Source: Streptomyces sp. P3
Lineage (GTDB): Bacteria > Actinomycetota > Actinomycetes > Streptomycetales > Streptomycetaceae
Length of the DNA: 64,000 nt
Direction: 5' to 3'
Assembly (NCBI RefSeq): GCF_003032475.1
Contig: NZ_CP028369.1
Coordinates: forward strand, 620,001 to 684,000
Below, piece after piece: positions 858-21,195 of this stretch (the first letter of the stretch is position 1; each line of letters starts with the position of its first letter). Made by a program: the position numbers and the translations under genes. The notes under the pieces are model-generated. The model searched no databases. It was not told where the DNA came from and saw only the letters and a list, made by a program, of their open reading frames with translations.

Positions 858-930
858 GCCCCCGTAGCTCAGGGGATAGAGCAACGGCCTCCGGAGCCGT
901 GTGCGCAGGTTCGAATCCTGCCGGGGGCAC
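858..930 (+). tRNA. tRNA-Arg (anticodon CCG)
   Basis: A complete cloverleaf can be drawn. The acceptor GCCCCCG (858-864) pairs with CGGGGGC (922-928). The D arm is GCTC/GAGC, the anticodon stem is ACGGC/GCCGT around loop CTCCGGA (anticodon CCG), and the T arm is GCAGG TTCGAAT CCTGC. CCA is not fully encoded (ACC then T). The 3' half is repeated at 14986 and 21007, which is the classic signature of an integrase attachment site in a tRNA gene. The tRNA itself is intact. Confidence 0.96.
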
Positions 931-1079
931 CTTGCATGAGGTGCCCAAAGACCCCGCCACCAGCGGTTTCGCTGAGGACGGGGTCTTGGCATATGTGCAG
1001 CCGGATGCAGCCCGAAGCGGTCGTATGTCGAGGTCTGTGGACGAGGCGTGGACGGGATCTTGAGGCATTCCCGCAGGTG
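882..1079 (+). repeat. att-like direct repeat copy 1 (tRNA-Arg 3' end plus ~150 bp)
   Basis: From the anticodon arm of the tRNA through the terminator and on to about 1079, this stretch recurs in the same orientation at 14986-15182 and 21007-21195. The tRNA part is nearly identical in all three. The downstream ~150 bp is clearly homologous with scattered substitutions, for example GTGGACGAGG(C) in all copies. It is read as attL/attB of a former integrative element. The conserved stretch is much longer than a typical tRNA att core, so it may instead reflect tandem duplication of the whole locus. Confidence 0.85.
948..987 (+). terminator. tRNA-Arg terminator hairpin
   Basis: AAGACCCCG (948-956) pairs with CGGGGTCTT (979-987), and a nested CAGCG/CGCTG stem (961-965/970-974) sits inside the loop. 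A second small hairpin, GGCACCT/AGGTGCC, precedes it at the tRNA end. The structure is preserved in both downstream att copies. Confidence 0.8.
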
Positions 1080-1194
1080 GCACAGCGCATGGAAGTCGAT
1101 CGGCAGCGCCGCTCGCTATCGTCGTCCCGGTAGTGGATGACGTTGAGGGAGGGAAGACTGACGACCGCCGCCGACGGGCAAATGATCGGACGAG

Positions 1195-1838
1195 GTGGGG
1201 GATCTCCTGGACGTGACCACGCTTGCAGTTACTCTCAGCGGCGTCGCAGGAACGCTCGGCGGAACTCTGGGCGGAGCGCTGCTCAGCCAGCGCGTCACCC
1301 GAGAGCAGAACCAGCGCGCGGATCGTGAACGAGCAGAGGACCGTCACGACCGAGCGCAGGAAGCCAGACGGGATCTCTACGCCGCCTGAACACCACGGCT
1401 CGCGCTTATCGGGTCGCTGCCCGAGACTCCGTCCGAGCAGCCGAGCGTGGTGAAACCGTCGAGCCAGCAGTCCTTGACACCGCCAGGGACGCTTGGTTGG
1501 AGCAATACTCTTCGGCACAGATGGCGCTGCCGAAGCATGTCCACGAAATTGTTTCGATCCTCAACAGGGCGCTCGGAGTCGGGTATTCCGTAGTCAAACA
1601 ATTGCCGAACAGTCCTGACCCGGACGAGTCGTACAGCCGTGCCAAAGCTTGGTTCAGCGGCCCAATGTCCGACGGGGTGTATCTGCTGCGGGTCACTCTG
1701 CGCCATGACCTCGGTGTCGAGGTCGAGCCCGACTTCAAACGCACATGCACACGGATACTCGCCGTGCTCGATGGCGAGCGAAGGATCCTTGAACGTCTAC
1801 TCTCCTCCGAACAGGCGCGGACGACCCGGCCTGCTTGA
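1195..1838 (+). pseudogene. Frameshifted small gene, unrecognised family
   Basis: Two open frames belong to one gene. The first runs from GTG at 1195 with a hydrophobic Gly-rich segment (LAVTLSGVAGTLGGTLGGAL) and then a charged RE/RA-rich helix ending ...RRDLYAA. The second continues the same protein in another frame as LNTTARAYRVAARDSVRAAE... through EQYSSAQMALPKHV to the stop at 1838. Restoring one C near 1389 (GCCGCCTGAAC to GCCGCCCTGAAC) joins them into one protein of about 214 residues. The architecture is an N-terminal membrane helix followed by a charged coiled-coil-like domain. It is the first cargo after att copy 1. The function is unknown. The break could also be a sequencing error. 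Confidence 0.6.
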
Positions 1839-1899
1839 CGGGCCAAGGAAACGACGAGGCCTCTGGGCATCACGTCACGGCCCTCAAACACGAGCAAGG

Positions 1900-2436
1900 T
1901 CATGTCGCCGTCGGCGGGACCTGGCTCCAAGCCTGGCGATGGTGGGCGACGCCGTACACCTGCTCGACCTGGTCGACTGTCAGCACCCCTGAGAGCGGCG
2001 CCAGTGCCGCCACCTCAGGTTCCGGTACACGCGCACGCTGAGCTGCGTGGCAACCATCTTCAGATCAGTCACGCCCACGAAAACGAGCACCGGCTCCACT
2101 GGTACGGGAAAACCGCAGTAGCACTCAAGCACTCGGGCTACCCGCTTGGCCTCAGCCCTGCTCTAACGCGCATACGGCGCCAGCTTTCCGTAATCCAACT
2201 TCACGGAGTCGTCGCCGACCCACACAGCCCTTTTGTGATGGTGTTTCGTATTGATGCTGAACACGCCACCGGGCCCGATCAGCAAATGGTCCACGTCGAC
2301 CTTGACGGCCAAGAGGATGGAATGCAGGACGCGCCAGCCGTGCCGCTCCAAGCGGTTCAGCTCGGCTCTCACCCACCGCTCCCCCGCCAGGCCCTTCCGC
2401 CAGGAGTCCCACTCGGGGGCGCCGCAGGATCTGTAA
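1900..2436 (-). pseudogene. NERD-domain (nuclease-related) gene remnant, copy 1
   Basis: Read leftward from the IS boundary the frame gives WRKGLAGERWVRAELNRLER, then GWRVLHSI, KVDVDHLLIGPGGVFSINTKHH and VFVGVTDLK. These are hallmarks of the NERD domain, a restriction-endonuclease-like fold. Three lesions are visible. The 5' end is cut off by the ISAzo13-like element. A TAG stands where the sister remnant at 23 kb has CAG (PYAR-stop-SRAEA, near 2163). One G is missing near 2018-2020, which shifts the frame before the C-terminal APLSGVLT segment. The usual stop is also lost. Sister remnants lie at 15.8 and 23.0 kb. Confidence 0.75.
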
Positions 2437-4197
2437 GGGCCCGTAAAGAATCAACACGTTGATTTGGTCTCAGCCGTGAGGGTCGCGCCGTGTGCGGTGG
2501 CGTGGACGAGGAGTCCTGCCAGGGTGTTGAGGTGTGGTGCTGGTTGCTGGGGTGTGTGTGCGTGCTGGTCCATCAAGCGCCGGATCTCGCTTGTGGTGTG
2601 GCGGATGGTGTCTTTGCTGACGGCGAAGAGGCGGGCCAGCACGGTGGGCGGCAGGGCGAGGTTTTGTTGTAGCACGGTGACCAGGACCCGGTCGGCCAGG
2701 TCGAGTTTGGCTTTGCGGCCGCCGCCCGGGGCCCGGCGTCGTTGACCACCGTCGCGTCGTGTGGTGGCGTCCTGTTTCTGCAGCGTCTGCCAGTCGGCGT
2801 TCAGGGTTTCGGTCAGCTCGGTCAGTGCGGTGCGGGTCATGCCGGTCAGTGCAGGGTGCGACAAATCACCGCGGTCGAAGACCGCCGCCGGCTCGGACGC
2901 TGGCCCGGTGGGGCCTGCCGGGCCGGCGGGGGTGGGGGTGGACGGTGTAGTTCCATTCGCCGTGGAAGGCATGTCCGGTGACCGGCACTGCGTTCAGCTC
3001 GGCGTCGCTGACCTTCACACCGACTGGATAGGCGCCGGTGTCGAGTTCCGCGTGGACGGTGAGACCGGTGCGGGTGGTGGTCGCGGCGATGGACTGCACG
3101 ACGACCTCATGGCTGTTCAGGGGCCTGCCGCGCCAGTTCATCGTGATCGCGGAGAACAGCCGGTGCTCCACTTTGTTCCACTTCGATGTGCCCGGCGGCA
3201 TGTGGCACACCGTGACAGTCAGGCCGGTCCGGGCGACGAACGCAGCGAGCTCGGTCTTGAAGGCCCGGGTGCGGTAGCCGTTGGAGCCGCCAGCGTCCGC
3301 GGTGATCAGCAGACGTCTGGCCTGTGGGTAGTCGAGGCGTCCTTGCCCGTTCCACCAGCGGCGGATCGATTCGACCGCGAAGGCCGCGGTGTCGTGATCC
3401 GTACCGACGTTCACCCAGCCGGTGTCCGCCGCCAGGTCGTAGATGCCGTAGGGCAGGGCTTTGCCCAGTGCATCACCGGGGAAGTCATGAACATCGACCC
3501 GCACCGGCTCGCCGACCGGTCGTCATTGACGTCCCGCATTCTTGAACTCCCCGAGGACTTCCTTCTTCTTCGTATCCACACTGACCACTGGCCGACCGTC
3601 CGCCTGATGGTCCTTGACCTGGTCGTTGATGTACCGGAACTGCGCGTCCCGGTCAGGGTGCTGAGCGCCCTCAAGGGTCTTGGCGTTGGCCTGCAGACTG
3701 AAACCGTTCTCCCGTAACAGCCTGCCCACGGTCGGTGCTGACGCGGCATGGCCCTGCCGTGTCAGCTCCCCAGCCAGAGACCGCAGCGACTTGGTCGTCC
3801 AGCGCAGCGGCGACATCGGATCGCCCCGTTCATCCGGCTCGACCAGCGCCAGCAACGCCGGAACGAGCAGCGGGTCAAGCTCCTCGGCGCTCTTGCGACC
3901 GCCGCCATCCCGGCGGACCCGGCCATCGGGCAGTGGGGCCTCACCGCCCTCCAACTCGTATACACCTTTCCGTACTGTCGTCTCGCTCACCCCTGCGGCA
4001 CGCGCGACGGCCCGGACCCCGCCGTGCCCCAGCAGCCGGGCCTCGGCAGCCAGCGCCAGCCGCTGCTGCCGCTCATTGAGATGAGGTAACAACACCCCGA
4101 ATCGCAGGGCGAGTTGGTCAAGAGTCTCGCTCGGTATGCGCATACCACACCAACGACAAGGAGACCGTGAAGCAACGTGTTGATTCTTTACGGGCCC
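2437..4197 (-). mobile_element. ISAzo13-like insertion sequence
   Basis: A perfect 25-bp inverted repeat (left end 2437-2461, starting GGGCCCGTAAAGAATCAAC; right end 4173-4197) bounds a 1.76-kb element. The trinucleotide TAA flanks both ends (2434-2436 and 4198-4200) as a likely target duplication. The element interrupts the NERD remnant on its left. The DNA on its right does not continue the NERD gene, so a deletion followed or preceded insertion. Confidence 0.88.
2451..4143 (-). pseudogene. ISAzo13-family transposase, frameshifted
   Basis: The N-terminal part (3523-4143) starts MRIPSETLDQLALRFGVL and carries an HTH-like region (GVRAVARAAGVSETTVRKG) and the first catalytic motif area (RPVVSVDTKKKEVLGEFKN). 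The frame then breaks next to 3520. The middle part (2866-3504) continues with VDVHDFPGDALGKALPYGIYD, the second-Asp block LLITADAGGSNGYR and the Glu block TSKWNKVEHRLFSAI, as expected of the ISAzo13 (PF07592-type) DDE nuclease. A third overlapping frame (2451-2972) holds a C-terminal helix-turn-helix region (LADRVLVTVLQQNLALPPTV). At least one frame change is needed for a full protein, so this copy is probably inactive unless recoding occurs. Confidence 0.82.
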
Positions 4198-4255
4198 TAA
4201 GAACCCCTAACAGAATGCTGCAATTACCTTGGAATGTTGGCGCCTGATGGGTTGT

Positions 4256-4320
4256 TAGCCTCGATCTTTCGTGACGGTCTACCGACGGAGTCGGTAGACC
4301 GTCACGAAAGATCGAGGCTA
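4256..4320. repeat. 65-nt near-perfect palindrome with IS1380-like ends
   Basis: A 31-bp arm starting TAGCCTCGATCTTTCGTGAC (4256-4286) is followed by the 3-nt spacer GGA and its exact reverse complement (4290-4320). The outer bases TAGCCTCG..TTTC resemble the ends of the IS1380 element at 11249 (TAGCCTCGCCGTTTC), so this may be two IS ends abutted head to head, or a minimal MITE. The surrounding 4198-4330 stretch between two IS elements holds no gene. Confidence 0.8.
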
Positions 4321-4330
4321 GGAGTTCTAA

Positions 4331-5195
4331 GACGGTGTCCTACGTGGTGAGGCGGACGAATCGCTTGTAGCAGCACATTGCTGCGGCGAGGCCGAGAAAG
4401 GCCAGGTAGTTGCGTGGATCGCGTTCATAGCGAGGGCTGAGTCTGCGGTAGCCGGACAGCCACGAGATCGTGCGCTCGATCACCCACCTTCGTCGGCCCA
4501 AGCGTTCGCTGGACTCGATGCCCTTGCGGGCGATACGCACGCCGATGCGCTTGCCCCGTAACCATTTCCGTAGGTGGGGAATGTCGTAGGCCTTGTCCGC
4601 GTGTAGGCGCTGAGGCTTGAAGTAGCGGCCGTTGTGGGGGTCGTGTCTCGTTTGGTGACCGGCCACCATGGGCTTCAGCCCTTCGCTGTCGTGGACGTTG
4701 GCGGCGGAGACGCCGACGACCAGGGGCAGTCCGTTCGCGTCCGACAGAACGTGCATCTTGGAACCCGGCTTGCCCCGGTCCACGGGGCTCGGACCTGTGT
4801 GTCTGCCCCCTTTTTAGCCCGCACGTGGGCGGAATCGAGCACCACGCGGGAGACGTCGATGAGGCCCGCGTCGTCGAGCCGATGCAGGACCGCCTCGTGC
4901 AGCCGGCCCCATACCCCGGCCCGCGACCAGATCAGGAATCGGCGATGGGCCGTCGACTTCGATATCCCGAAGCACGGCGGCAGGGCCCGCCAGGCGCACC
5001 CGCTGACCAGCACATAGACGATCGCCGCGAACAGCGTCTCATCAGGCGCGTTCGGCGTTCCACCGCCCTGCGGCCGCACCCGGTCCTCCGGAATCAACGG
5101 CCTGGCGAGCTCCCACAAGCCGTCCGGAACAATCCAACTCCACTTACCCCGCCCCATGAACAGACCAACGAGCGATCACCACGTAGGACACCGTC
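4331..5195 (-). mobile_element. IS5-family (IS427-group) insertion sequence, copy 1
   Basis: This is an 865-bp element with terminal inverted repeats GACGGTGTCCTACGTGGTGA (left 4331, right ending 5195). It is flanked by TAA on both sides (4328-4330 and 5196-5198). An identical-looking 865-bp copy lies at 17883-18747 in the opposite orientation. The element landed exactly at the end of the neighbouring IS5-type element, which begins at 5197. Confidence 0.92.
4340..5157 (-). CDS. IS427-group transposase, two frames joined by -1 frameshift
   Basis: The first frame (5157 to about 4810) begins MGRGKWSWIVPDGLWELARP and covers the N-terminal helix-turn-helix and the first catalytic Asp (VVLDSAHVRAKKG). 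The second frame (to 4340) supplies KMHVLSDANGLPLVVGVSAA, the second-Asp region LHADKAYD and the Glu motif RWVIERTISWLSGYRRL. The frames meet at A5G5 (complement of 4806-4815), a slippery run typical of IS427-group programmed -1 frameshifting. The fused product reads ...AKKGGRHTGPSPVDRGKPG... and is about 270 residues. Because the second copy has the same arrangement, the shift is a property of the element and not damage. Confidence 0.88.
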
Positions 5196-5665
5196 TAAGT
5201 GGGCGGTTCGTAAGGTGATGTCCGCTTCCGGGTGACGCTTGGAGCAGGGTTGCTGGTCGTGGCGTCGGTTATTGCTTCCTGGCGAAGTTTGCCGGTGCCG
5301 ACTTCGGTGAGGATGCCGAGTTTGACCAGGCGCTTCAGCTTGGCCCGGGTGCCCTCGACCTTCTTCGGCAGTTCGTGGCCGAGAGCTTCGCAGACGTCTT
5401 TGGCCCGCAGGGAGCCGGTCGCCTCGTTGAAGACGGCGAGGATGCCCGTGTAGTCCGGGTGCTCGGGCAGCTCCGGCAAAGACGCCGGGAGCCGGTCGGT
5501 GAGGCCGGTGATGGTCTTGCGGGTGATCGCGATGTGGTCCAAGTGGGTCTCGGCCTCCCGTAAACGGGTCTGCAGGTAGTCGATCTGTGCGCGCAGGTCG
5601 TCGGTCAGGGCCCGGGCGGCGTGTTCCTGGAGGTCCAGGGCGTCGAGCAGGGGCTGGATGTTCAC
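5195..5665 (-). CDS. Transposon passenger: coiled-coil/winged-helix-like protein
   Basis: The start is GTG at 5665 (VNIQPLLDALDLQEH), which overlaps the transposase stop as GTGA, so translation is probably coupled. The product is about 156 residues. The first ~60 residues form a heptad-rich helix (RALTDDLRAQIDYLQTRLRE). The second half (YTGILAVFNEATGSLRAKDV...VEGTRAKLKRLVKLGIL) looks like a winged helix-turn-helix. It aligns by eye with the passenger protein at 17.2-17.8 kb: both have Y..I, AK(D/E), LG.EL, K(V/I)EG.R.K and RL...G.L. The TAG stop lies across the element's terminal repeat. It may be an accessory or regulatory subunit for the transposase. This role is inference only. Confidence 0.72.
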   Translation of the reverse strand: MNIQPLLDALDLQEHAARALTDDLRAQIDYLQTRLREAETHLDHIAITRKTITGLTDRLPASLPELPEHPDYTGILAVFNEATGSLRAKDVCEALGHELPKKVEGTRAKLKRLVKLGILTEVGTGKLRQEAITDATTSNPAPSVTRKRTSPYEPPT

Positions 5666-6615
5666 GCTGCCGCTGCCTGCGGCTCGCGCCAGGTGGGAGC
5701 GTTCGCGCCGGTGAGGCGTCGTGCCATGACGTGGGTCATCGCCCAGTAGACGCGGGAGGCGGAGGAGGAGGGGCAGTGCTCGTAGTCGCGGACCAGGCGC
5801 CGGTGCAGTATCAGGATCCCGTAGGTCTGCTCGACCCTCCACCGCTTCGGCCGCGGCACGAACCCCTTGACCAGCGGGTTGCGCTCGACGATCTCGACGT
5901 CGATCCCCAGGCCGGCGCCGTGCAGGACGACCTGGTTCTTGCAGCCCTGGTCGACCAGGGCTTTGCGGACCGTGCTGCCGGCGTGCTCGGCGACCTGGTC
6001 CAGCAAGGCGATGCCCGCGGCGTTGTCGTGGGCGTTCGCGGCGAGGACGACGACCGCGATGACCAGGCCGAGGACATCCACCGCAAGGCCCCGCCTGCGG
6101 CCGGGCACCCGCTTGGCCGGATCGTGGCCGCTCGTGGCGGTGGGGACCCCGGCGGCCACGTGGACACTCTGGGTGTCCAGGACCACCAGGGTCGGGTCCT
6201 CTAATCGCCGGGCGCGTTCACGGACCTGGCAGCGCGGGAGTTCATGGATGACCTGGTCGGTCCCGTCGTCCCGCCAGGCGGCGAAGTAGTAGTAGGTCAC
6301 GCTCATCTGCGGCAGGTCGTGCGGGAGATAGGCCCACTGGCAGCCGGTCCGGCCCTGGTAGAGGATCGCGTTCACGATTTCCCGCATGTCGTAGGCGCCC
6401 CGGTGGCCGCTGACCGAGCGGTGCCGGTCCTTCCACGCGGTGATCACCGGCTCGATCAACGACCACTGCTCGTCCGACAAGTCACTCGGGTACGGCTTGC
6501 GTTCACTCACCCGGTCACATCACCAGATCACCAACCGCGGACCGGTAGATTCCGCCCCGCCACCACACCATCAGGCGACAGCAGAACCGCTCAAAGACTC
6601 ACGAACCGCCCACTT
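5197..6615 (-). mobile_element. IS5-family element carrying a passenger wHTH gene
   Basis: The ends carry the inverted repeat AAGTGGGCGGTTCGT (left, from 5197) and ACGAACCGCCCACTT (right, ending 6615). Between them lie a transposase gene and a second gene translationally overlapped with it, both leftward. A clear target duplication could not be assigned because the left end was hit by the IS427-group insertion. Confidence 0.8.
5662..6510 (-). CDS. IS5-family transposase
   Basis: This 282-residue DDE transposase starts MSERKPYPSDLSDEQWSLIE, the standard N-terminal block (DUF4096-like) of IS5 enzymes. Catalytic blocks are visible: LVVLDTQSVHVA (first Asp), KALVDQGCKNQVV (second Asp), and the C-terminal FVPRPKRWRVEQTYGIL with the Glu. 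The frame is intact. The last codons overlap the downstream passenger gene by 4 nt. Length and motifs fit the IS1031-like branch of IS5. It is probably still functional apart from the IS insertion at the element's end. Confidence 0.88.
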   Translation of the reverse strand: MSERKPYPSDLSDEQWSLIEPVITAWKDRHRSVSGHRGAYDMREIVNAILYQGRTGCQWAYLPHDLPQMSVTYYYFAAWRDDGTDQVIHELPRCQVRERARRLEDPTLVVLDTQSVHVAAGVPTATSGHDPAKRVPGRRRGLAVDVLGLVIAVVVLAANAHDNAAGIALLDQVAEHAGSTVRKALVDQGCKNQVVLHGAGLGIDVEIVERNPLVKGFVPRPKRWRVEQTYGILILHRRLVRDYEHCPSSSASRVYWAMTHVMARRLTGANAPTWREPQAAAA

Positions 6616-6672
6616 AGAGGTGCCATCTGCTGCGGTCGACTGTAGATACTTCCAGCCCTGGATTTGGGCCGC

Positions 6673-6823: not shown

Positions 6824-6840
6824 GCTACCGAGCATATGAC

Positions 6841-6860: not shown

Positions 6861-6969
6861 TGAGGCTTGCTGATTATGGCTAGACCGCCTGCCCAACTTG
6901 CTTGCACTTAACTTGACCACCGACAGGACCGCTAAGATGTCGCAGAACACAGACGAGAGGGAAGATCCA

Positions 6970-8979
6970 ATGAGCATTTCTGATGATTCGACAGCAGAGA
7001 GCCCACTGCTGGGGGTATCCGGCTCATTCGGATTTGCAGAGATTGAATTTGCACGACGTTTTGATGACCTGCATCAATTGATCTACCGGCAGGGCGGAGT
7101 CCGCCCTACCAATGCTGCAGTCGAAGAAGTGGCCAAGCTCATCTTCCTTCGCCTCTGGTGGCTCAAAAAGCCCGACACCTCACTGCCGTCAGGTCTTACT
7201 CTCGACATCCTCTTCTCACCCAAAGAAAACGGCCAACGACTGGTTGAGAGCTTCAAGCAGGCATTCAATCTTGCTTTGAACGCGGACGAGTTGTCCGCCC
7301 TCACTCCCAGCGGCATCAAAGAATCTCTATGGCCCGTAGACGAGCCATTTCGCCTGAGCAATCCCGATGTACTAGATTCAGCAGTGAAGCTGGTCTCAGA
7401 CCTGATTCAGGATCACACACCAGCTGTTTCAGATCCTCTGGGTACAGCATTCGATGCGCTACTTAGTGGCCGTTACGACCACAGCGGCGGTTTGGGAACC
7501 TATCTTACACCCAGCAGTGTCGCACGAATGATGGCAGAGATCGCCTTCGATCTCCTAGAGGCACCATGCTTCGACACGCCCGAAAATCTACTTTTGGGAG
7601 ATCCATTCTGCGGAACTGGACGATTTCTTGTTGCAGCAGCTGAAATCCTCCGGGAAATCGGGACACCGGAAGCAACGAAAGCCATCTCGACGGGACTGTT
7701 TGGATCCGACCAATCAACCTCTTCTGTGGCCAAAGCCCGCATCAACATGATGCTTTATGGCGTTGAGCATCCTCTTGTATGGACCACTCCCGACTCCATC
7801 GTCGACAAAGACCTGTCAAAGCTGCACGGGAAAATTCAAATTATCCTCACCAACCCCCCTTTCGGCGAGGGTAAGTATGACAGCCTGGCGGGCATCTCCC
7901 AAACTGCATACGTCATCCCGCGGGTAACAGGTAAGAAAAAGATTGACCCTGCACTAGCAGGCCTCGTGCAATCGCTCCTGCTACTGAAGCCGGGCGGGGT
8001 CCTTGGGATTGTCCTGCCCGACGGTGTTATCGAGTCTCGTGCGTTCGATGATCTAACATCTGGACGAAATGGAATCCTTGGGGGGGGCATTTCTGTCGCA
8101 GCAAATGTCAGTCTCCCGACAGCGACTTTCTCCCTAAGCGGTACCGTTGCAAAGACAAGCGCCATTTTCCTCAAGAAGGAAAGTAGGCGTACACAGGTCG
8201 CCTTGGCGCGCGTCCAACATGTCGGCTATCTTCGCCAGGCCGGCAAGGCGGCAAGGGACCCGCAGGGAAACGATCTGCCTCGCATTCCGAAACTGATGCG
8301 TAGCGGTCTATCAGCCGCTGGCAACGCGCTGGTATTCATTGAAAGCCAAGAGCCACTAGTTGCTATCGCGCAACCGGGGGCCTTGCAGTCCTTCGACCCC
8401 TCACGCGTAGACCCGGCGGCCCTCCGGGCGCGAGCCTCCATCAAGGAACGCGGAGGCATGGAGCTCCAAGCTCTAATGCAGGAGGTACGCGCCCGCCGTT
8501 CGCGGCTTCTCCCCGATGTTCCCTTCATCTCCGTGCTTCACATCGACGATCTGGGAACTATCGCATGGCATGAAGCCGAAAGGTACCAGCCGACCACTCC
8601 GGGAATCCTTGCATCTGGTGGGGATCTGATTATTTCCCTGCTCAATCCTTCAAAACTACGAGCCTCGGTCATCCCCGAAGAATTGAAGACCGTACAGGTA
8701 TCCGCCGAGTTTGGAGTCTTTAAACCCCATCAGCATCCCTATGCAATTCTCGGACTGCTGTACTCCGAGAGTGTTAAAGCACAACTGCGCCCGCTGGGTC
8801 GAGGAACTTCCAGCTCTCGCAGGCGAATTAACGAGGAGGATGTACTCTCTCTCACCGTTCCCATGCTGGACGAACAAGCAATGTCGCGGTTGGACATAAA
8901 GCTGAAGGAATCACTGGAGTCTATTAGCCGGGCCCGGGCCACGCTAAGCAGCGAATTCGGAAAGATCGCAGCGGGCTAG
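6970..8979 (+). CDS. N6-adenine DNA methyltransferase of a MamI-type R-M system
   Basis: This 669-residue protein resembles a type I HsdM-like gamma-class adenine methyltransferase. The N-terminal helical domain (FARRFDDLHQLIYRQGG) precedes the SAM-binding motif I LLGDPFCGTGRFLVAAAE (about residues 208-225) and the catalytic motif IV LTNPPFGEGKYD (NPPF at about residue 295). The C-terminal ~200 residues probably form the target-recognition part. The ATG at 6970 follows GAGAGGGA. In-frame starts upstream (TTG 6898, ATG 6937) are less well served. It converges on the endonuclease gene at 9037. Base composition is clearly more A+T-rich than its surroundings, which suggests recent acquisition. 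It should protect host DNA at the sites cut by the partner. Confidence 0.88.
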   Translation: MSISDDSTAESPLLGVSGSFGFAEIEFARRFDDLHQLIYRQGGVRPTNAAVEEVAKLIFLRLWWLKKPDTSLPSGLTLDILFSPKENGQRLVESFKQAFNLALNADELSALTPSGIKESLWPVDEPFRLSNPDVLDSAVKLVSDLIQDHTPAVSDPLGTAFDALLSGRYDHSGGLGTYLTPSSVARMMAEIAFDLLEAPCFDTPENLLLGDPFCGTGRFLVAAAEILREIGTPEATKAISTGLFGSDQSTSSVAKARINMMLYGVEHPLVWTTPDSIVDKDLSKLHGKIQIILTNPPFGEGKYDSLAGISQTAYVIPRVTGKKKIDPALAGLVQSLLLLKPGGVLGIVLPDGVIESRAFDDLTSGRNGILGGGISVAANVSLPTATFSLSGTVAKTSAIFLKKESRRTQVALARVQHVGYLRQAGKAARDPQGNDLPRIPKLMRSGLSAAGNALVFIESQEPLVAIAQPGALQSFDPSRVDPAALRARASIKERGGMELQALMQEVRARRSRLLPDVPFISVLHIDDLGTIAWHEAERYQPTTPGILASGGDLIISLLNPSKLRASVIPEELKTVQVSAEFGVFKPHQHPYAILGLLYSESVKAQLRPLGRGTSSSRRRINEEDVLSLTVPMLDEQAMSRLDIKLKESLESISRARATLSSEFGKIAAG

Positions 8980-8989
8980 GCCAACATCT

Positions 8990-9032
8990 AGTTGCCCACC
9001 CCGCAATGTGCGAAAGGGCGGAGTGGGCAACT
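8990..9032. terminator. Bidirectional terminator between the convergent R-M genes
   Basis: AGTTGCCCAC (8990-8999) pairs perfectly with GTGGGCAACT (9023-9032), with some further pairing inside the loop. It lies in the 57-bp gap between the two convergent stop codons and can serve both strands. Confidence 0.72.
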
Positions 9033-9036
9033 GTTC

Positions 9037-9969: not shown

Positions 9970-10091
9970 CAGTGCTCCAACCTCAGCTCACACGGGTAGC
10001 ACACGAGCGAAGCTGACAACCAACGCCGTGCAGCCAGCCGTTCGCTGTGGACCAGGAGTGGACGAGCGCCACTCTAACTGTCTGTCGAAGG

Positions 10092-11231: not shown

Positions 11232-11248
11232 CTACTGGCGCAGGACAC
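10095..11248 (-). mobile_element. IS630-family insertion sequence
   Basis: The terminal repeats GTGTCCTGCGCCAG (10095-10108) and CTGGCGCAGGACAC (11235-11248) are exact. TA dinucleotides at 10093-10094 and 11249-11250 give the TA target duplication characteristic of IS630. The segment 9970-10092 between the endonuclease gene and this IS holds no recognisable gene. Confidence 0.93.
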
Positions 11249-11735
11249 TAGCCTCGCCGTTTCGGTTGGAGCGATGAGTCGTCGCTGAGGGACAACTGCG
11301 GGGTGACCGACGCTATTTCGTTGCTCGGACATTGCGGAATCCCGGCGCGGTGGTCGGGTTCTCCGGAGTCCGTCGGGTCGTGGGAGGGCAGGGTGGTTGC
11401 TGGTCAGCTGGCGGGACGGGGCAGTGCGGCGAGACGGTGGAAGGCCGCGACCAGTTCGTTTCTCCATGGCCAGGTCGCCGATATCCGCAAGCGCAGGCGT
11501 CGGCCGCCGCGGGTGAGGCGGGCAGCGACGTGCAGCAGCCGGTAGCGGAGCTTCTTCGGCTCGGCAGTGGCCAGCTCCCCGTCCAGCAGCAGGACGCGCG
11601 TCCAGGCCAGCAGGTCGATCGCCGCGAGGCTGAGTTCGAGCCAGACAGCGTGTCGGCGGCGGCTAAACCTGGGTTCTGGATCACTTTCCGTGCAGCGTTG
11701 ACGGACGGCACGGACCCACCCGGGCCGTGGGGCGG

Positions 11736-13349: not shown

Positions 13350-13416
13350 GGGCCTTGATCGTTAGGCATCCGGGGGCGGCGGCGCAGGGAAGCACCGGAA
13401 GTGATCACAAGAGACG

Positions 13417-13676
13417 GGTGTCGTTCGTGAACGGGATCGGGTGTGATCTGCGGGCGGTGGAGGTGGGGCTGACCTTGCCGTTCAGCTCGGGGGCGGTCGA
13501 GGGGCAGGTGAACCGGATCAAGATGCTGAAGCGGCAGATGTTCGGCCGGGCCGGCTTGGCCCTGCTACGCAAGCGCGTCCTGCTGGCCGCGTGACCGCCC
13601 CACGGCCCGGGTGGGTCCGTGCCGTCCGTCAACGCTGCACGGAAAGTGATCCAGAACCAGAATTCAGGCGTCGCCG
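13417..13676 (+). pseudogene. Inverted duplicate of the ISL3 transposase 3' end
   Basis: Reading rightward, VSFVNGIGCDLRAVEVGLTL through LRKRVLLAA and the stop at 13594 repeats the last ~58 codons of the transposase at 11736 exactly, followed by the same IS end. It has no start or N-terminal domains of its own. It is a truncated second ISL3 copy in opposite orientation, or the product of an aberrant transposition. Confidence 0.88.
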
Positions 13677-14985
13677 AGACAGCGTTGGCGCCGAAGCCGC
13701 GGGAGGGGAAACGGCCGAAGCCGGCGGTCTTACCGCACCGGATGTGGTCCTCGACTGTGGCATGCCCGCGGTGGCGGACCTCGAGTAACTGGGCGGAGCC
13801 ACCACCGGAGTACGGGGTGTCGGTGAGGAACACCTGATGTCGCAGGCCCTCGTCCTGATCGAACAGGGACAGCTGGGCACCGGGGTGTGGCCGCTCGCGG
13901 CGCACGATGATGCGGGTGCCGGCCGGGTAGCCGTCCAGATCGACTATGCCGGTCAGCTCGGCAACCTCTGCGCCATCACGCAGCGTCCCGCCCTGGTCCA
14001 GGGCGGGATGCCAGAGGCGGTCGGGCACCGAGCGGATCGCGCGGCGGACGGGCTCGGTGACCGCGTATCCGACTGAGAAGAAGGTACGGATTCCTCGTTT
14101 CCGCAGGTCGCCGATGTGGGTGAGGAAGACTTTCGCCGGCACTGTCGGCGCGGACCAGGATGTCGATGCCGCGCCGGTGAGCGTCAGGGATCTGCGCGAG
14201 CGCCTGGTCGAGCACCACAACGTGATCAGCGGCAGTGTTGGCTCCGGAGTTCCCGGCCGCAGCCGCCCCGACACGGCCTCGCCGGTGTTCGCGAGGAAAC
14301 ACAGGAACGGATGGAAGCCGAAGCCGCCCTTATAGGTCGGGGCGGCCTGTTCCTTTTCCGAGTGACAGGCGACCAGCGTGGCGTCGAGGTCCAGGACCAG
14401 GCCGGGAAGTTCTTGTCCGCCGGCCCGAGCGGCAGGTATGCCCTCGCCGGTCTCGGCGGCCTGCATCCAAGGGCTTCCCGGGCTGAAGCGCGGGCCGCTC
14501 GCAGCGAAGCGAGTGCAGCCTCGTCGGTGTCGGCGAGCAGTCACCAAGCCGTGGGCGTGGATGCGACCGGGCCGAACACCTCGCCCTGGTCCCGCAACAC
14601 GGCCAGGTCCGCGATCGCCTCACCGCCGTCGGCGAGCATCACCGCGAGATCGGTGGCGACCCGGCCCGGGTCGTGCCCGGTCCCGCGCGGCCGAAGCCGC
14701 CGGAGAGCGGCGGAGTACGCGGCGGTCAGCCCGGTGGCATCAGCAAGATCCGCCAGCAACCGTGCTCCGGCATGCCCGACCACCCCGAACCATCGGCACT
14801 GACACGAACCTTGGGACGCAACCCGATAGTCTGCACGTAGAAAGTGCCCTCCGCTTGGACCGACAGAACCCCTCAACAAGGTTCATCGTCCCAGGTCAGG
14901 AAGGCACTTTCGTGTTTCCGCCTCAAAGCCAGTTGTACCCAAGTGAAACGGCGAGGCTAGTGACCTGGATGAACGAACTGAGCCT

Positions 14986-15182
14986 CAACGGCCTCCGGAG
15001 CCGTGTGCGCAGGTTCGAATCCTGCCGGGGGCACCTTGGATCAGGTGCCCAAAGACCCCGCCACCAGCGCTTTCGCTGAGGACGGGGTCTTGGCTTATGT
15101 GCAGGCGTGTGCCGCTCGGAGCGGCTCTATGTCGCGGTCTGTGGACGAGGCGTGGAGGGATCTTGGAGCATCGTCGCAGGTG
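14986..15182 (+). repeat. att-like direct repeat copy 2 (partial tRNA-Arg plus flank)
   Basis: This starts in the tRNA anticodon stem (CAACGGCCTCCGGAGCCGTG), runs through the T arm and acceptor strand, and continues with the same terminator (AAGACCCCG 15052-15060, CGGGGTCTT 15083-15091) and ~90 bp of homologous flank. The 5' half of the tRNA is missing, so it is not a functional tRNA. It marks the junction between two accessory segments. Confidence 0.88.
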
Positions 15183-15194
15183 AGCCCCGCAAAA

Positions 15195-15230
15195 CGATGT
15201 GGCCCTTGGACGGGCGCAGGGGCCACATCG
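15195..15230 (-). terminator. Hairpin terminator of the gene at 15250-15672
   Basis: CGATGTGGCC (15195-15204) pairs exactly with GGCCACATCG (15221-15230), with short A-tracts on both flanks (GCAAAACG). It lies just past the leftward gene's stop. Confidence 0.75.
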
Positions 15231-15249
15231 CAAAACGGCACCGATCCCC

Positions 15250-15672
15250 CTAGTCGGCAGTGACCCCCCAGTAGCCGATGTGGATGGGCCTGCCGTCTCG
15301 GTAGAGCACTGTGCAGTTCCCCTGGGCGCGGCCTGGGAAGTCCAACTGCTCGGAGTCGAGAGCGGCGTCCCACTCCGCGTAGGTGGGCCGGCCGTGTGGA
15401 GCCCACGCACGCACCTCACCATCGGTCAGCGGCCGCATGAACGGACCGTCGTCGGTGTCCGCAGCCTCGATCATGAGAGGGAAGTCCAGCACGGTGCCCG
15501 TGCCACCCGTGAAGATGTACTCATGCCACTCCGGGTCACGCCACAGTTCCTCGACGGACCGGCCCTCGAAACCGTGATTGTCCCGCGCCAGCTCGTCTTC
15601 CTGGGCCTGCCGGAACGCGGCCGCCAGATCACGCTGATACGGGCCAGTGTGGGTCCATGCGTTGCCGCCCAT
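15250..15672 (-). CDS. Uncharacterised Streptomyces-type protein
   Basis: This 140-residue soluble protein starts MGGNAWTHTGPYQRDLAAAF, with an AGAGGGG ribosome-binding site just upstream of ATG 15672. The sequence is acidic and Trp-rich (SVEELWRDPEWHEYIFTGGT, RAWAPHGRPTYAEWDAALDS) and ends GNCTVLYRDGRPIHIGYWGV. I recognise it only as a recurrent Streptomyces hypothetical family. No catalytic motif is evident and no membrane segment is present. It is the only intact gene between att copy 2 and the second NERD remnant. It could be an immunity-type or regulatory protein, but nothing in the sequence proves it. Confidence 0.75.
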   Translation of the reverse strand: MGGNAWTHTGPYQRDLAAAFRQAQEDELARDNHGFEGRSVEELWRDPEWHEYIFTGGTGTVLDFPLMIEAADTDDGPFMRPLTDGEVRAWAPHGRPTYAEWDAALDSEQLDFPGRAQGNCTVLYRDGRPIHIGYWGVTAD

Positions 15673-15814
15673 CCGCGTCCCCTCTGCATTCGAACTGTTT
15701 GTTTCAAGAGCGGAGCGTAAGAGACGACACTGACAGGCCAACCCGACGATGGCCAACTCCGGAGGCCACCTACAGCTACCGCGAGGAAGGTCGGCACCTC
15801 CTGAGAACACCGGC

Positions 15815-15955
15815 TCAGGCCCGACTCCAAGCCTGGCGATGACAAGCGACGCCGTACACCTGCTCAGCCGTCAACACCCCCGAAAGCGGTGCCGGTGCCG
15901 CTATCTGACGCTCCTGGTACACGCGCACGCTGAGCTGTGTGGCGACCGCCTTTAG
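15815..15955 (-). pseudogene. NERD-domain gene remnant, copy 2 (3' end only)
   Basis: Only the last ~47 codons survive, reading LKAVATQLSVRVYQERQIAA then PAPLSGVLTAEQVYGVACHR and QAWSRA-stop. The frame matches the end of the copy at 1.9 kb and shows what that copy would encode without its frameshift. The upstream part is lost at about 15955. The stretch 15956-16300 holds no gene I can defend. A short rightward frame at 16004-16270 (QSDDWHDQPRGPYQAQHLEA) might be a fragment of one. Confidence 0.65.
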
Positions 15956-16346
15956 GGTCAAGAACCTTGCTGGTCAGAGGCCATCCACAAAGCCAAACCC
16001 TGATTGTGCTCCGGAGCCGTGCTGACGCTCCAGCAGCGCCCCCTGCTCGCGCTCCGGCCGGTAGTGGGCACGTGGCTAGCCGCGCTCACGGAGCGCCGAT
16101 CGGTCAGAGTCGCGACAGCATGCCAGCGACTTCAATCAGACGACTGGCACGACCAACCCAGGGGGCCTTACCAAGCCCAACACTTAGAAGCCGTATGCCT
16201 ATCGATCATGAGCGCGGTTCTGATCGAACGGGGTCCCAGGTCGAGTGATCTTGGCCGCGCGGGCGCATGAAAGCAGGACCTCCGGTGCAGCACGAGGGTT
16301 GCGAAGCCAACTCGAGCGCCAGGAGGCCCTGTTGTCCCAGTCTTGC

Positions 16347-17279
16347 GTGACGGACCTGTTCCCGTCCAACTCCCGCGTGTCGGCGTGCGATTGCCTCGCT
16401 CACCGGTTCGGGAACGCGGCCGACCGCCCGGAGAGGGCGCCGGTGTATCCCTCCGACATGACGGATGAGGAATGGGCGGTGGTGCGCGACGCGATGCCGG
16501 TCCCGGCCTGGCTGGAGGGCCGGGGCGGACAGCCGGAGGGCTACTGCCACCGGCAGATGCTGGACGCGATCTTCTACGTCACCGACAATGGGATCAAGTG
16601 GCGCTCCCTGCCTGTCGATTACCCGGCATGGGACCGCGTGTACGCCTACTTTCGCAGGTGGCGACGGGCGGGCCTGGCCCGGGAGTTCCACGACCGGCTG
16701 CGCGGAAGGGTCCGTGAGGCCGAGGGCCGTCAGCCAGAGCCGACGGCAGCGATCATCGACTCGCAGTCGGTGAAGGGCGCCTCCTCGGTGCCCGCCGCCT
16801 CACGCGGCTACGACGGCGGCAAGAAGATCAACGGAAGGCGCCGGCACGTCATCACGGACAGCATCGGCCTCGTCTTGATGGTGCTGGTGACGGCCGGACA
16901 CGTGACCGACCGGCAGGCCGCCCGCGTCATGCTGCCCCATCTGCGGGCGCGGTTCCGCACGATCACGCTGGTGTGGGCCGACGGCGGCTACACCGGCTGC
17001 CTGGTCGACTGGGCGAAGGAGAAACTCCAGCTCACGCTGGAGATCGTCAAACGCAGCGACGACATGAAGGGGTTCGTGGTGCTGCCGAGAAGGTGGGTGG
17101 TCGAGCGCACCCTGGGATGGCTGATGCGCTCGCGGCGCCTGGTGCGCGACTTCGAGACACTGCCCGCCTCCAGCGAGGCGTTCATCTACTTCTCGCAGGC
17201 CATGCTCATGAGCCGCCGTCTTGCCCGGACAGCCTCCCGGCCCCGGCAGGAGCGGTCACAGTGGACTGCCGCGGCGTGA
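16347..17279 (+). CDS. IS5-family transposase
   Basis: This intact DDE transposase is 310 residues from GTG 16347. The N-terminal block VYPSDMTDEEWAVVRDAMPV is typical of IS5 enzymes. Catalytic blocks are AAIIDSQSVKGA (Asp), LVWADGGYTGCLVDW (Asp) and FVVLPRRWVVERTLGWL (Glu). The frame extends further upstream without a stop, so the exact start is uncertain. The last 74 nt overlap the convergent passenger gene. Confidence 0.85.
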   Translation: MTDLFPSNSRVSACDCLAHRFGNAADRPERAPVYPSDMTDEEWAVVRDAMPVPAWLEGRGGQPEGYCHRQMLDAIFYVTDNGIKWRSLPVDYPAWDRVYAYFRRWRRAGLAREFHDRLRGRVREAEGRQPEPTAAIIDSQSVKGASSVPAASRGYDGGKKINGRRRHVITDSIGLVLMVLVTAGHVTDRQAARVMLPHLRARFRTITLVWADGGYTGCLVDWAKEKLQLTLEIVKRSDDMKGFVVLPRRWVVERTLGWLMRSRRLVRDFETLPASSEAFIYFSQAMLMSRRLARTASRPRQERSQWTAAA

Positions 17280-17763: not shown

Positions 17764-17882
17764 CGGCCACCTCCGCATCATCCAGGACGAACTGATCGCC
17801 CGAACGCTCCCACGACGACACCGGAACCATGCCTGAGCAGCGGAAACTCAGTGATCACATCCGGAAAGACAACGGCTTCTTA

Positions 17883-18747
17883 GACGGTGTCCTACGTGGT
17901 GATCGCTCGTTGGTCTGTTCATGGGGCGGGGTAAGTGGAGTTGGATTGTTCCGGACGGCTTGTGGGAGCTCGCCAGGCCGTTGATTCCGGAGGACCGGGT
18001 GCGGCCGCAGGGCGGTGGAACGCCGAACGCGCCTGATGAGACGCTGTTCGCGGCGATCGTCTATGTGCTGGTCAGCGGGTGCGCCTGGCGGGCCCTGCCG
18101 CCGTGCTTCGGGATATCGAAGTCGACGGCCCATCGCCGATTCCTGATCTGGTCGCGGGCCGGGGTATGGGGCCGGCTGCACGAGGCGGTCCTGCATCGGC
18201 TCGACGACGCGGGCCTCATCGACGTCTCCCGCGTGGTGCTCGATTCCGCCCACGTGCGGGCTAAAAAGGGGGCAGACACACAGGTCCGAGCCCCGTGGAC
18301 CGGGGCAAGCCGGGTTCCAAGATGCACGTTCTGTCGGACGCGAACGGACTGCCCCTGGTCGTCGGCGTCTCCGCCGCCAACGTCCACGACAGCGAAGGGC
18401 TGAAGCCCATGGTGGCCGGTCACCAAACGAGACACGACCCCCACAACGGCCGCTACTTCAAGCCTCAGCGCCTACACGCGGACAAGGCCTACGACATTCC
18501 CCACCTACGGAAATGGTTACGGGGCAAGCGCATCGGCGTGCGTATCGCCCGCAAGGGCATCGAGTCCAGCGAACGCTTGGGCCGACGAAGGTGGGTGATC
18601 GAGCGCACGATCTCGTGGCTGTCCGGCTACCGCAGACTCAGCCCTCGCTATGAACGCGATCCACGCAACTACCTGGCCTTTCTCGGCCTCGCCGCAGCAA
18701 TGTGCTGCTACAAGCGATTCGTCCGCCTCACCACGTAGGACACCGTC
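17883..18747 (+). mobile_element. IS5-family (IS427-group) insertion sequence, copy 2
   Basis: This has the same 865-bp length and the same terminal repeats as the copy at 4331-5195, here in the opposite orientation. TTA flanks both ends (17880-17882 and 18748-18750). As far as can be read the two copies are identical, which indicates recent transposition. Confidence 0.92.
17921..18738 (+). CDS. IS427-group transposase, two frames joined by -1 frameshift
   Basis: The N-terminal frame (17921-18403) starts MGRGKWSWIVPDGLWELARP. The C-terminal frame ends at 18738 with RWVIERTISWLSGYRRL and LAAAMCCYKRFVRLTT. The slippery A5G5 lies at 18263-18272, between AHVRAKKG and the second frame. It encodes the same protein as the first copy, with DDE residues present. 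Presumably made as a frameshift fusion of about 270 residues. Confidence 0.88.
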
Positions 18748-18838
18748 TTAATGCTCATAAGCCTCTGACCTGCACATTCTCTGACTTTCTTGATCATTTA
18801 CCAGCGATGACGAGGCTGGGGGCTTGACGGCGGTGCTA

Positions 18839-18852: not shown

Positions 18853-18875
18853 CAGGTACCGGATGGGAGTTGACC

Positions 18876-19073: not shown

Positions 19074-19085
19074 GGGACCGTCGCC

Positions 19086-19463
19086 ATAACCGAGTACCTG
19101 GACGCCAATGACGTCATCCAGATCGCGGAAATCACTCTTGGTGGCCGTGTTGGCGTACGCGATTGGGGGCTGTTGCAAAGCGCCGTCGCTCGCCCTCAGG
19201 CCAGCGTGTTCGGCGAGGATGCCTACCCAACGCTCTTCGACAAGGCAGCAGCTCTGCTGCACTCTGTCTCCAGCAATCACAGCCTGGTAGACGGGAACAA
19301 GCGCACTGGGTGGGCATCAGCCGCCGTCTTCCTACACATCAACGGGCATCCGCTGAAGGAACCCCTGGACGAGGACGCGGCTGAGGAGTTCGTGTTGGCA
19401 GTGGCTCAGTCTCAGTTGTCGAACCCGGAGATCGCCAACCGCTTGAGGCTATTCGTTGCTTAG
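19086..19463 (+). CDS. doc: Doc-like (Fic-fold) toxin, start codon in doubt
   Basis: The frame reads ITEYLDANDVIQIAEITLGG...VRDWGLLQSAVARPQASVFG...LLHSVSSNHSLVDGNKRTGW... and ends at 19463, about 125 residues. The motif HSLVDGNKR is the Doc version (H-x4-GNKR) of the Fic active site. Doc enzymes phosphorylate EF-Tu and stop translation. Between the antitoxin stop and TEYLD there is no ATG, GTG or TTG: the expected start position is ATA (19086). Either a rare start, coupling with the antitoxin, or loss of the start codon is implied. The next TTG (19173) would remove the first helices. Confidence 0.75.
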   Translation: MTEYLDANDVIQIAEITLGGRVGVRDWGLLQSAVARPQASVFGEDAYPTLFDKAAALLHSVSSNHSLVDGNKRTGWASAAVFLHINGHPLKEPLDEDAAEEFVLAVAQSQLSNPEIANRLRLFVA

Positions 19464-19660
19464 CACAGGAGTCGAGCGCCGCCCTACCAAGCCTCGACAC
19501 ACCTCCGACACACCAAGCACCACCACACCGCCCCTATCTATCTCCACCGCAGGTCGGAACAGCCCTGCGGTGTGATCAGCACGATGAGCATTTTCAGTGT
19601 GACCACCTATCAGGTGACAGCTCAGGCGCCTCTGGCGTCAAGCACTTGCCGGGGAGGCAG

Positions 19661-20020
19661 TCAGTTGAAAGCGTCGGTCATGCAGTCCACCAGGCAGTCG
19701 GCGGCCTCATAGCGCTGGCGGAGGGCGGCAGCCGCTTCTTCGCGCCCCACGAAGAGGTACCCGTAGTGCCGGCGCGCCACCCTGGTCACGTCTCCGACCG
19801 TGACGATGGCCGGTTCGCCGTGTGCGGCCCGTCGGCGCGCTCCGGCGATTGCCATGTCCGCAGAGCGCAGCAGGTTTCTGGAACGATCCCGGATCACCGC
19901 TGCCTGGACGCGTTTCGCCGAGAGGGGACGCAGGACATGTCCTCTCCAGACGTAGCCGGCGGCGACAAGGATGAGACCGAGCGCTACGAACAGGAGTCCG
20001 CCTGGGGCGTGAGGTCGCAT
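19661..20020 (-). CDS. Small membrane-anchored protein of unknown function
   Basis: This 119-residue protein starts MRPHAPGGLLFVALGLILVA. Residues ~8-26 form one transmembrane helix near the N-terminus. The rest is a basic, helical cytoplasmic or external domain (RDRSRNLLRSADMAIAGARR...HYGYLFVGREEAAAALRQRY) with two Cys near the end. No ribosome-binding site is convincing. I recognise no family. The stretch 19464-19660 downstream of the toxin gene is intergenic without visible features. Confidence 0.55.
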   Translation of the reverse strand: MRPHAPGGLLFVALGLILVAAGYVWRGHVLRPLSAKRVQAAVIRDRSRNLLRSADMAIAGARRRAAHGEPAIVTVGDVTRVARRHYGYLFVGREEAAAALRQRYEAADCLVDCMTDAFN

Positions 20021-20178
20021 CTATCCAGTCTTCACCACTCGCGTGGCGATCGTCATGCCCGCGTCGGCCGCCGATTGTCGGAGCGACCTGGTGTCAGTGG
20101 GTCCATGCGTAACGCACGAGGCTCCCGTGCCGTTGAAGGAGGTGTTCGAAGTCTCAACCCACAGGCACAGGAGCCGCG

Positions 20179-21000
20179 TTGGTTCCGTATTCTGCCGCAC
20201 TCGACCTGCCTCACGCCCTGGTCGAGTGGGTCACCATGCTCATCGTCACCCGCGAGGGTGACCGCCGCTGCAAGCTCCCACCGCACCAGCGTCCCCTGGT
20301 CGGCCTGGTGTACCTGCGTCGGCATGACACCCTCGCCCAGTTCGCTGCCGGGTTCGGCATCTCCGTCGGCATCGCCCACGCCTACACGACAGCCGTCGTC
20401 GACCTGCTCGCCGACCGGGCTCCCGGCCTGCTGCGTGCTTTGCGCGAGACGGACCCGGACTACGTCCTGCTCGACGGCACCCTTGCCGCGTGCGACCGGG
20501 TCGGCGACATCTGGGCCGACTACTCTCACGCGTCACCAGCAGCCTGATACTTCAGCAACCCTGATGACCGCAGCTTGACGCACACAGGGGCATCAAGCAC
20601 CGTCGACACGGGGTGAACGTGCAGGTGGTGACCGACCCCGCCGGGCGGCTGCTGTGGATCTCGCCGACGATGCCCGGCCGCGCGCACGATCTCACTGCGG
20701 CCCGGGCCCACCGAATCATCCGGATCTGTGAAGGCCAGGGCGTCCCGATCCTCGCCGACCGCGCCTCCATCGATGCCGGCCCGTGGGTGACGACACCCCT
20801 CAGACGCCGGCCGGGCCGTGACCTCACCCCGACCCAGCAAACCATCAGCCGAGCGCTGGCCACGGCACGGGCACCGGTCGAACGCGGCGTCGCACGACTG
20901 AAATCCTGGGGGATCCTCCGCAAGTCCCGGTGCAGTCCGAATCGAATGTCGTCAATCTCCGCGGCCGTGCTCACTCTGGAGCGGCAACGCCGAAAGACCT
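20179..21000 (+). pseudogene. IS5-type transposase remnant
   Basis: The N-terminal half (20179-20547) carries an HTH region ([20 protein letters not shown]...[19 protein letters not shown]) and a first Asp block ([18 protein letters not shown]). After a stop and ~65 nt of unrelated sequence the frame resumes as HGVNVQVVTDPAGRLLWISP, GVPILADRASIDAG, APVERGVARLKSWGI and RCSPNRMSSISAAVLTLERQ. The 3' end is cut at att copy 3. It is inactive. No terminal repeats were found. Confidence 0.8.
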
Positions 21001-21006
21001 CAATCA

Positions 21007-21195
21007 CTCCGGAGCCGTGTGTGCAGGTTCGAATCCTGCCGGGGGACCTTGCATGAGGTGCCCAAAGACCCCGCCACCAGCGCTTTCGCCGAGGACGGGG
21101 TCTTGGCGTCTGTGCAGGCGGATGTCGCTCGGAGCGGCCGTATGTCGGGGTCGGTGGACGAGGCATGGCCCCGATGTTGAAGCATCGCCGCAGGT
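21007..21195 (+). repeat. att-like direct repeat copy 3 (partial tRNA-Arg plus flank)
   Basis: This begins at CTCCGGAGCCGTGTG, contains the T arm TTCGAATCC and most of the acceptor strand (one C missing: GGGGGACC), then the same terminator (AAGACCCCG 21065-21073, CGGGGTCTT 21096-21104) and ~90 bp of homologous flank. Of the three copies it diverges most from the intact tRNA, which suggests it is the oldest junction. Confidence 0.85.

Follow-up and report, generated by a model that had tools for sequence, protein, structure and literature searches.

A tRNA-Arg(CCG) locus of Streptomyces sp. P3 that very probably holds three decayed integrative elements of the pSAM2 type

Why is the tRNA-Arg(CCG) gene of Streptomyces sp. 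P3 followed, within little more than 20 kb, by two further copies of its own 3' half, all in one orientation? The question was asked of a window of 64,000 nucleotides, by which we mean the whole stretch of DNA analysed here (bases 620001 to 684000 of a 9.85-Mb single contig, NZ_CP028369.1), with positions counted from its first base. An earlier note, made from the letters of this DNA, had described 858 to 21195 as an island of two segments of about 14 and 6 kb, filled with restriction-modification (R-M), toxin-antitoxin, insertion-sequence and decayed genes and with no visible integrase, replication or transfer gene; it favoured tandem integration at the tRNA and kept duplication of the locus as an alternative. 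Our results indicate that the stretch from 882 to about 23.93 kb is very probably a fossil array of three pSAM2-type actinomycete integrative and conjugative elements (AICEs) that integrated successively into this tRNA gene.

The tRNA-Arg(CCG) gene (858-931, forward strand), the proposed target, is the sole tRNA gene of the window according to ARAGORN. Homologues of lysA and thrA lie upstream of it, and its left flank recurs at 22 other loci whose tRNA is intact. A search of the P3 genome with a 207-bp query yielded eight matches, three of which were long; these all lie in the window on the forward strand, at 858-1064, 14986-15165 (92%, E 1.8e-68) and 21007-21180 (89%, E 9.5e-60). The five remaining, shorter matches cover the tRNA part alone (query positions 1-74). 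ARAGORN and this search bear out the intact gene and the partial copies at 14986 and 21007 that had been reported, and a dispersed repeat family, named at the time as a possible refutation, is ruled out, the long repeat occurring at just three places in the genome.

The repeat common to the three copies is about 180 bp long. Copies B and C start within the anticodon stem-loop, continue to the tRNA 3' end and include a hairpin and some 50 bp more; the shared stretch extends about 133 bp beyond the tRNA 3' end, where 90 to 100 bp had first been estimated. Copy A (882-1064, forward; core about 889-930, hairpin block about 931-1015, arm about 1017-1062) would be the attL of the first element, here element 1. 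Copy B (14986-15165, forward), with core, hairpin block and arm, would be the junction of the right end of element 1 with the left end of element 2, and copy C (21007-21180, forward) the left end of a third element. A perfect 53-bp repeat spans the core of A and B; the core of C has one substitution and one base missing.

An alignment of 63 copies from 31 loci distinguished three blocks, namely a tRNA core of about 42 bp, a terminator-like hairpin block of about 85 bp and an arm of about 50 bp. The hairpin block occurs in single-copy genomes too. It folds better than shuffles in all three window copies (z -6.0 for A, -3.4 for B and -3.7 for C), in keeping with the terminator hairpin described earlier; a simple terminator scan, which requires a T run, detected none around copy A. 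In four single-copy comparison genomes (G013, G188, G027 and G015) the query matched only up to position 117-130, and in most integrase-side copies up to 146-149 or 172-183. The attachment (att) repeats exceed the tRNA here because the terminator-like block is part of them, and what follows for 50 bp or so is the arm of the element. This explains the long homology, which the earlier note had rightly found longer than an att core.

The site is widely used in the genus. The 133-bp tail behind the tRNA was matched (E up to 1e-5) in at least 98 of 199 same-genus genomes and twice or more in at least 30, counts that include P3 itself, come from four candidates scored per genome and allow copies that lie apart, as in G040. 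In that genome, repeat copies are scattered over the chromosome (positions 946145, 3304495, 7136518 and 8764262), and the one at 946145 is without the tRNA 5' part.

The comparison set comprised 30 loci outside the window that hold a copy. It was non-random, most loci having been picked for several copies and seven for a single copy; the second G124 locus, G261, G381 and G206 (LuxR relatives only, no repeat copy) were excluded, as was the one weak match, of 49 residues, that the flanking LuxR-type protein gave in a scan of named genomes. In 22 of the 30, a copy is followed downstream by a tyrosine-integrase gene, or a fragment of one, that is antisense to the tRNA; this count dropped sense-direction matches (an unfiltered search with one integrase gave antisense matches only). 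The integrase alignment covers at least 410 residues in 17 of these 22; fragments only were found in G030, G058, G116, G133 and G196, the G116 match being 5.2 kb away. No integrase was detected downstream of the copy in G074, G108, G013, G188, G027, G015, G091 and G040.

Relatives with an integrase beside this tRNA, which the earlier note had suggested looking for, therefore exist, and G225 is a close one. Its left flank is 96% identical to that of the window over 608 bp, and its right flank 85% over the first 4.1 kb. The order of features in G225 is tRNA, copy, integrase, RepSA, FtsK/SpoIIIE transfer gene, regulator and, 14 kb away, a second copy (int 7441-8874, RepSA 9014-10381, FtsK_SpoIIIE 12159-13526; copies at 7161 and 21511). 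RepSA, the name of a Pfam family, scored 491 bits and FtsK_SpoIIIE 110 bits; the integrase stayed under the Pfam cut-off (24.8 vs 27.1 bits), yet it is 66% identical to the G147 integrase (463 aa). With an integrase, a Rep and an FtsK-type Tra gene between two att repeats, this is by its predicted gene set a pSAM2-type AICE. Its integrase belongs to clade III, whereas the window arms point to clade II.

An empty site was found in another pair of genomes. The flank found behind the second copy in G133 directly adjoins the tRNA in G071; when the two loci are aligned, both sides match and overlap by 117 bp, the duplicated att, and the G133 insertion has a 116-bp perfect repeat. The two genomes are, as judged from their alignment, a clean empty/filled pair, and because of this overlap and this repeat, integration at this tRNA appears to duplicate the core together with the hairpin block. 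Perfect repeats in nine other compared loci measure 15-110 bp.

Arms follow integrases. Among 22 integrase-linked copies, arm identity reaches 0.77 when the integrases share a clade and 0.52 when they do not (none of 1000 label shuffles came out as high); the closest arm is of the same clade for 21 of the 22, with clade labels assigned by the analyst from the integrase comparison and G133, whose integrase fragment fits no clade, left aside. In the window, arms A, B and C come closest to clade II-a (means 0.83, 0.80 and 0.74), with clade II-b little behind (0.76, 0.77 and 0.71), and are far from clades III and I. The lost integrase was presumably of the G147/G139 clade.

A second mark lies on the other side of the core. 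An upstream motif, TGAC[CG][TA]G in 17 copies and AGGTCA in 12, marks 29 of the 37 non-first copies, and its distance from the core is fixed, at exactly 32 bp in 17 of them and exactly 37 bp in 12; the same pattern occurred in 0-7 of the 37 in each of eight intervals further upstream. The window holds TGACCTG at 14961-14967 (forward), 32 bp from the core of copy B as in 16 other copies, and is a candidate for the integrase arm site on the right side of element 1. The stretch that holds this motif, 14939-14967, has a 29-bp inverted copy (90%) at 11241-11269, 3.7 kb away and adjoining a transposase gene.

Behind its clade II arm, each window copy has cargo of its own. Cargo A is a broken gene (1166-1892, forward) whose homologue, a 218-aa open reading frame (ORF), lies in G139 between arm and integrase (75% over 741 bp); window positions 1065-2153 also match the stretch behind the G124 end copy (91.7% over 1122 bp). 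Cargo B (15177-15820, reverse) is homologous to a G108 stretch with a 150-aa ORF (88% over 646 bp) and also matches G142, and from copy B through the cargo the match to G108 is contiguous (838 bp, 88.7%). Cargo C is a 246-aa ORF (21298-22038, forward) with no Pfam, PADLOC or NCBIfam match; its homologue is a 249-aa ORF in G040 (76% over 763 bp), and here too the match runs contiguously from copy C through the cargo (1037 bp, 75.5%). In G124, G108 and G040 alike, the cargo match continues from the repeat.

The three cargoes are unrelated to one another, and the sole sequence they share is a second homologous block after each copy (1920-2314, 15820-15955 and 23013-23296), which had gone unnoticed. 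It consists of NERD gene remnants, all on the reverse strand: remnant A (1924-2414, in two frames) corresponds to residues 132-295 of the 297-aa G147 homologue, remnant B (15818-15955) to residues 249-297, and remnant C (23011-23294) to residues 166-231 and 270-297. They are truncated differently, the kept part starting at residue 132, 249 and 166, respectively. Copy and integrase are 0.5-3.3 kb apart in the seven clade II-a loci, and the ORFs between them vary by locus; in G147, the one element in which a NERD gene was seen between arm and integrase, they are a PIN_8 gene and a NERD gene. The relics thus have their att repeats at the tRNA 3' end and a left-end anatomy (arm, cargo, NERD) common to integrase-bearing elements. 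Because every copy is followed by its own cargo and then a NERD stub, and the cargoes match different genomes, each copy is best read from its sequence as the left end of a separate element, which makes three relic elements where two segments had been described.

The island from 858 to 21195 stands as outlined before, and it reaches further, to about 23.9 kb. Beyond about 23.91-23.95 kb the window is collinear with G013 (90%) and G225 (85%), and this collinearity places the junction with the conserved chromosomal flank at 23911-23951. An inverted 70% match to the copy-to-integrase interval of the G107 element lies at 23356-23854 (reverse). The flank comparison with G013 and G225 did not reveal a right boundary of the third element, and a flank piece of about 0.7 kb (G013x 9621-10310, G225 26729-27429) is absent from the window; a deletion that took the right end of the third element and part of the flank explains this.

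We propose that in each round recombination by a tyrosine integrase would have taken place between the matching sequences of attB (the tRNA 3' half) and attP (the core). Each element would have brought its own tRNA 3' half and hairpin block, so that the tRNA stayed whole, and each newcomer would have entered beside the intact tRNA and displaced the older element outward. By this insertion logic the elements would run from youngest to oldest, left to right, and the 3' half of the gene at 858-931 presumably derives from the element that integrated last. Genes for integrase, replication and transfer would later have been lost and insertion sequences have entered, so that left ends (arm, cargo, truncated NERD gene) and an R-M pair remained; in the outermost element, a deletion would have removed the right att copy and some chromosomal flank. 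The 14-kb content, R-M genes included, presumably belonged to element 1. Integrases in 22 of 30 loci, the motif spacing in 29 of 37 copies and the unrelated cargo uphold tandem integration at the tRNA.

Several observations weigh against this accretion scenario. No integrase, replication or transfer gene was found among 42 window ORFs chosen for a Pfam scan (40 of the first 29 kb and two more; the first 26 kb alone has 128 ORFs of at least 80 aa), and a tblastn search of the first 35 kb with 20 element proteins from the loci of G135, G147, G225 and G074 (E up to 0.1) returned no remnant of such genes; the earlier note had likewise reported none visible. Its matches were two NERD proteins and two weak hits (E 0.05 and 0.009) taken as chance; PADLOC and NCBIfam searches of window and cargo proteins returned only the R-M pair and weak integrase matches. 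Because no such remnant was detected in the window, the identity of the elements rests on their ends and on their relatives. The upstream motif occurs in a mean of 0.96 and a maximum of 3 shuffled copies, but since the motifs had been selected visually from these very copies, the shuffle count is no independent test, and the constant spacing carries more weight. Upstream of copy C no arm motif was found.

The arm, too, is an imperfect mark of a left end. The last copies of G101, G139, G147 and G171 have a full arm with no further element shown behind it, single-copy G091 matches up to 146, and the match of two integrase-bearing copies stops early, at 127 in G058 and at 121 in G109. The single-copy loci G196 and G108 have the full arm, the former with an integrase remnant and the latter with cargo B, and the full-arm last copies of G135 and G124 are followed by an integrase fragment and by cargo A, respectively. 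As to the empty site, the G133 insert holds an integrase fragment only, and the closest relatives of the window give no clean empty junction. The empty-site comparison proposed earlier gave a clean junction for G071/G133; in the lineage of the window, G013 has a single copy, but other DNA follows it for about 1.9 kb. Among the matches listed, with two candidates scored per genome, none placed this G013 stretch at another genome's copy, and the comparison of the DNA right of the G013 copy gave no evidence of a shared native flank.

Could the array still move? The window relics have no integrase next to an att site and no Rep or Tra gene, which makes them relics and not functional AICEs, and we infer that the array is immobile at present. 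It is conceivable, but on balance unlikely, that it is a dormant satellite from which the integrase of an incoming clade II AICE would excise element 1, between A and B. The perfect 53-bp repeat over the core, the clade II arms and the motif at copy B with its usual spacing would suit such an excision, the R-M genes look intact, and helper mobilisation of defective elements is proposed in PMC9513070. Against it, the core of copy C is damaged, and a search of the P3 genome for a trans-acting integrase of the right clade found none, the best long match reaching 42% and a 113-residue piece 46%.

That the relics derive from prophages or satellites instead of AICEs is highly improbable. Phages use the same tRNA att sites and integrases, and a window that keeps no rep or tra gene would fit them; however, no phage structural family reached the Pfam cut-off in the 42 scanned ORFs, and in the close relative G225 the element encodes RepSA and an FtsK-type protein, even if its integrase belongs to clade III. 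The weakest alternative, an in-situ duplication of the tRNA 3' half and downstream DNA by recombination and without mobile elements, would account for a repeat longer than the usual att core and for window copies that are more alike in the hairpin block (0.88-0.91) than the average between genomes (0.75), but it is very unlikely indeed, given that A, B and C have no detectable sequence in common between arm and NERD remnant, that each matches another genome's copy over 0.65-1.1 kb, that integrases occupy the same place in relatives, and that the clean insertion in G133 shows the same kind of repeat.

The likeness of the hairpin blocks within a genome is a wider pattern. Over 57 copies, identity in this block (repeat positions 50-134 in our mosaic test) is 0.837 within and 0.753 between genomes (0 of 2000 label shuffles as high), and over the 27 full-arm copies it is 0.847 vs 0.800 (p 0.024). 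For the arm, the values are 0.807 within and 0.803 between genomes in the 27 full-arm copies (p 0.45), and 0.590 and 0.516 in all 57 (p 0.0065); the arm is probably under constraint. These figures are suggestive only of a hairpin block that was swapped with the host copy or is of recent local origin, and a recent transfer from one close relative to another would produce the same pattern. We tentatively consider, as a doubtful possibility, that elements carry and swap the hairpin block, so that the block would track the host and the integrase arm next to it the element, and that several integrase clades, together with a further element type with another tail and hairpin, bring a spare copy. If the block is indeed exchanged with the host, the tRNA tail of the genus would be a record of past integrations. 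The further type is seen as core-only copies in G062, G124, G192 and G196, which share the same 45-bp tRNA core and have a different tail with its own hairpin-like stretch; the one in G124 has an integrase, 42-45% identical to the others, about 1.5 kb away.

The remaining content of the island bears out the R-M and insertion-sequence genes described earlier, and the toxin-antitoxin genes come down to a Fic/DOC-domain fragment (19173-19463, forward). The R-M pair consists of an N6-adenine DNA methyltransferase (6898-8979, forward; Pfam, PADLOC), with a C-terminal control-protein-like domain at residues 601-680, and a MamI-type restriction endonuclease (9037-9969, reverse; Pfam, PADLOC). The methyltransferase gene lies in a stretch of low G+C (0.52-0.57 in 7001-10000), and the pair looks intact from its predicted genes. 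On the left, an ISAZ013-type insertion sequence (2436-4198, reverse) has a DDE transposase in two ORFs and 29-bp inverted ends. An IS4/5-type insertion sequence of 881 nt (4319-5199, reverse) has an identical inverted copy at 17879-18759 (forward); together they enclose 12.7 kb in the middle of the island, which they could invert. Further transposase genes, all recognised with Pfam, are of IS4/5 type with DUF4096/DDE_Tnp_1 (5662-6510, reverse), DDE_3 (10092-11231, reverse), ISL3 type (11736-13349, reverse), DDE_Tnp_1_4 (13405-14547, reverse) and IS4/5 type (16245-17279, forward), and a DDE_Tnp_4 remnant (20613-21056, forward) has an ORF that enters copy C. On the contig, dnaA lies at 2.14 Mb of 9.85 Mb and the tRNA-Arg locus at 0.62 Mb; because their distance of 1.5 Mb resembles the 1.4 Mb or so in G013 and G225, either the contig is rotated or the chromosome arms are very unequal.

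How does this locus compare with known elements? The G225 element resembles pSAM2 in its RepSA initiator, its FtsK-type transfer gene and a tyrosine integrase beside an att site in a tRNA gene; the window copies lack the RepSA, transfer and integrase genes. The target of pSAM2 is a tRNA-Pro, unlike the tRNA-Arg here, and an S. coelicolor element, AICESco5349, is located at a tRNA-Arg. For terminator blocks in att sites and for arm sites we claim no priority.

Sav3708/Sav3728 of S. avermitilis are tandem AICEs at a tRNA-Arg, and Fean6303 of Frankia has three direct repeats that extend beyond the tRNA-Arg 3' end (PMC3218068, PLoS One 2011). The P3 locus and its relatives are like them in tandem arrangement, in different integrases at tRNA-Arg and in repeats longer than the tRNA end; those elements are listed there as AICEs with int, tra and rep, all three of which the window relics lack. 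Another parallel is AICE/DAICE accretion at tRNA-Arg in a Streptomyces population (PMC9513070, Front Microbiol 2022), a likeness that holds for tRNA-Arg in general, as another tRNA-Arg gene may be concerned. That study reports functional elements, of which the window yielded none, and no correlation between integrase and site; here, likewise, several integrase clades use one site, and the arm tracks the clade. As in the window, it describes a single tRNA-Arg with one, two or three elements bounded by direct repeats, an old traB-less remnant, and AICE decay that includes loss of the integrase. Accretion and decay of AICEs at Streptomyces tRNA-Arg are thus already published, and the window is an ordinary but well-preserved example: a ladder of what are very probably three decayed AICEs at an insertion site much used in the genus, whose relics can be recognised without mobility genes by arm type, fixed-spacing upstream motif, cargo slot and NERD stub.

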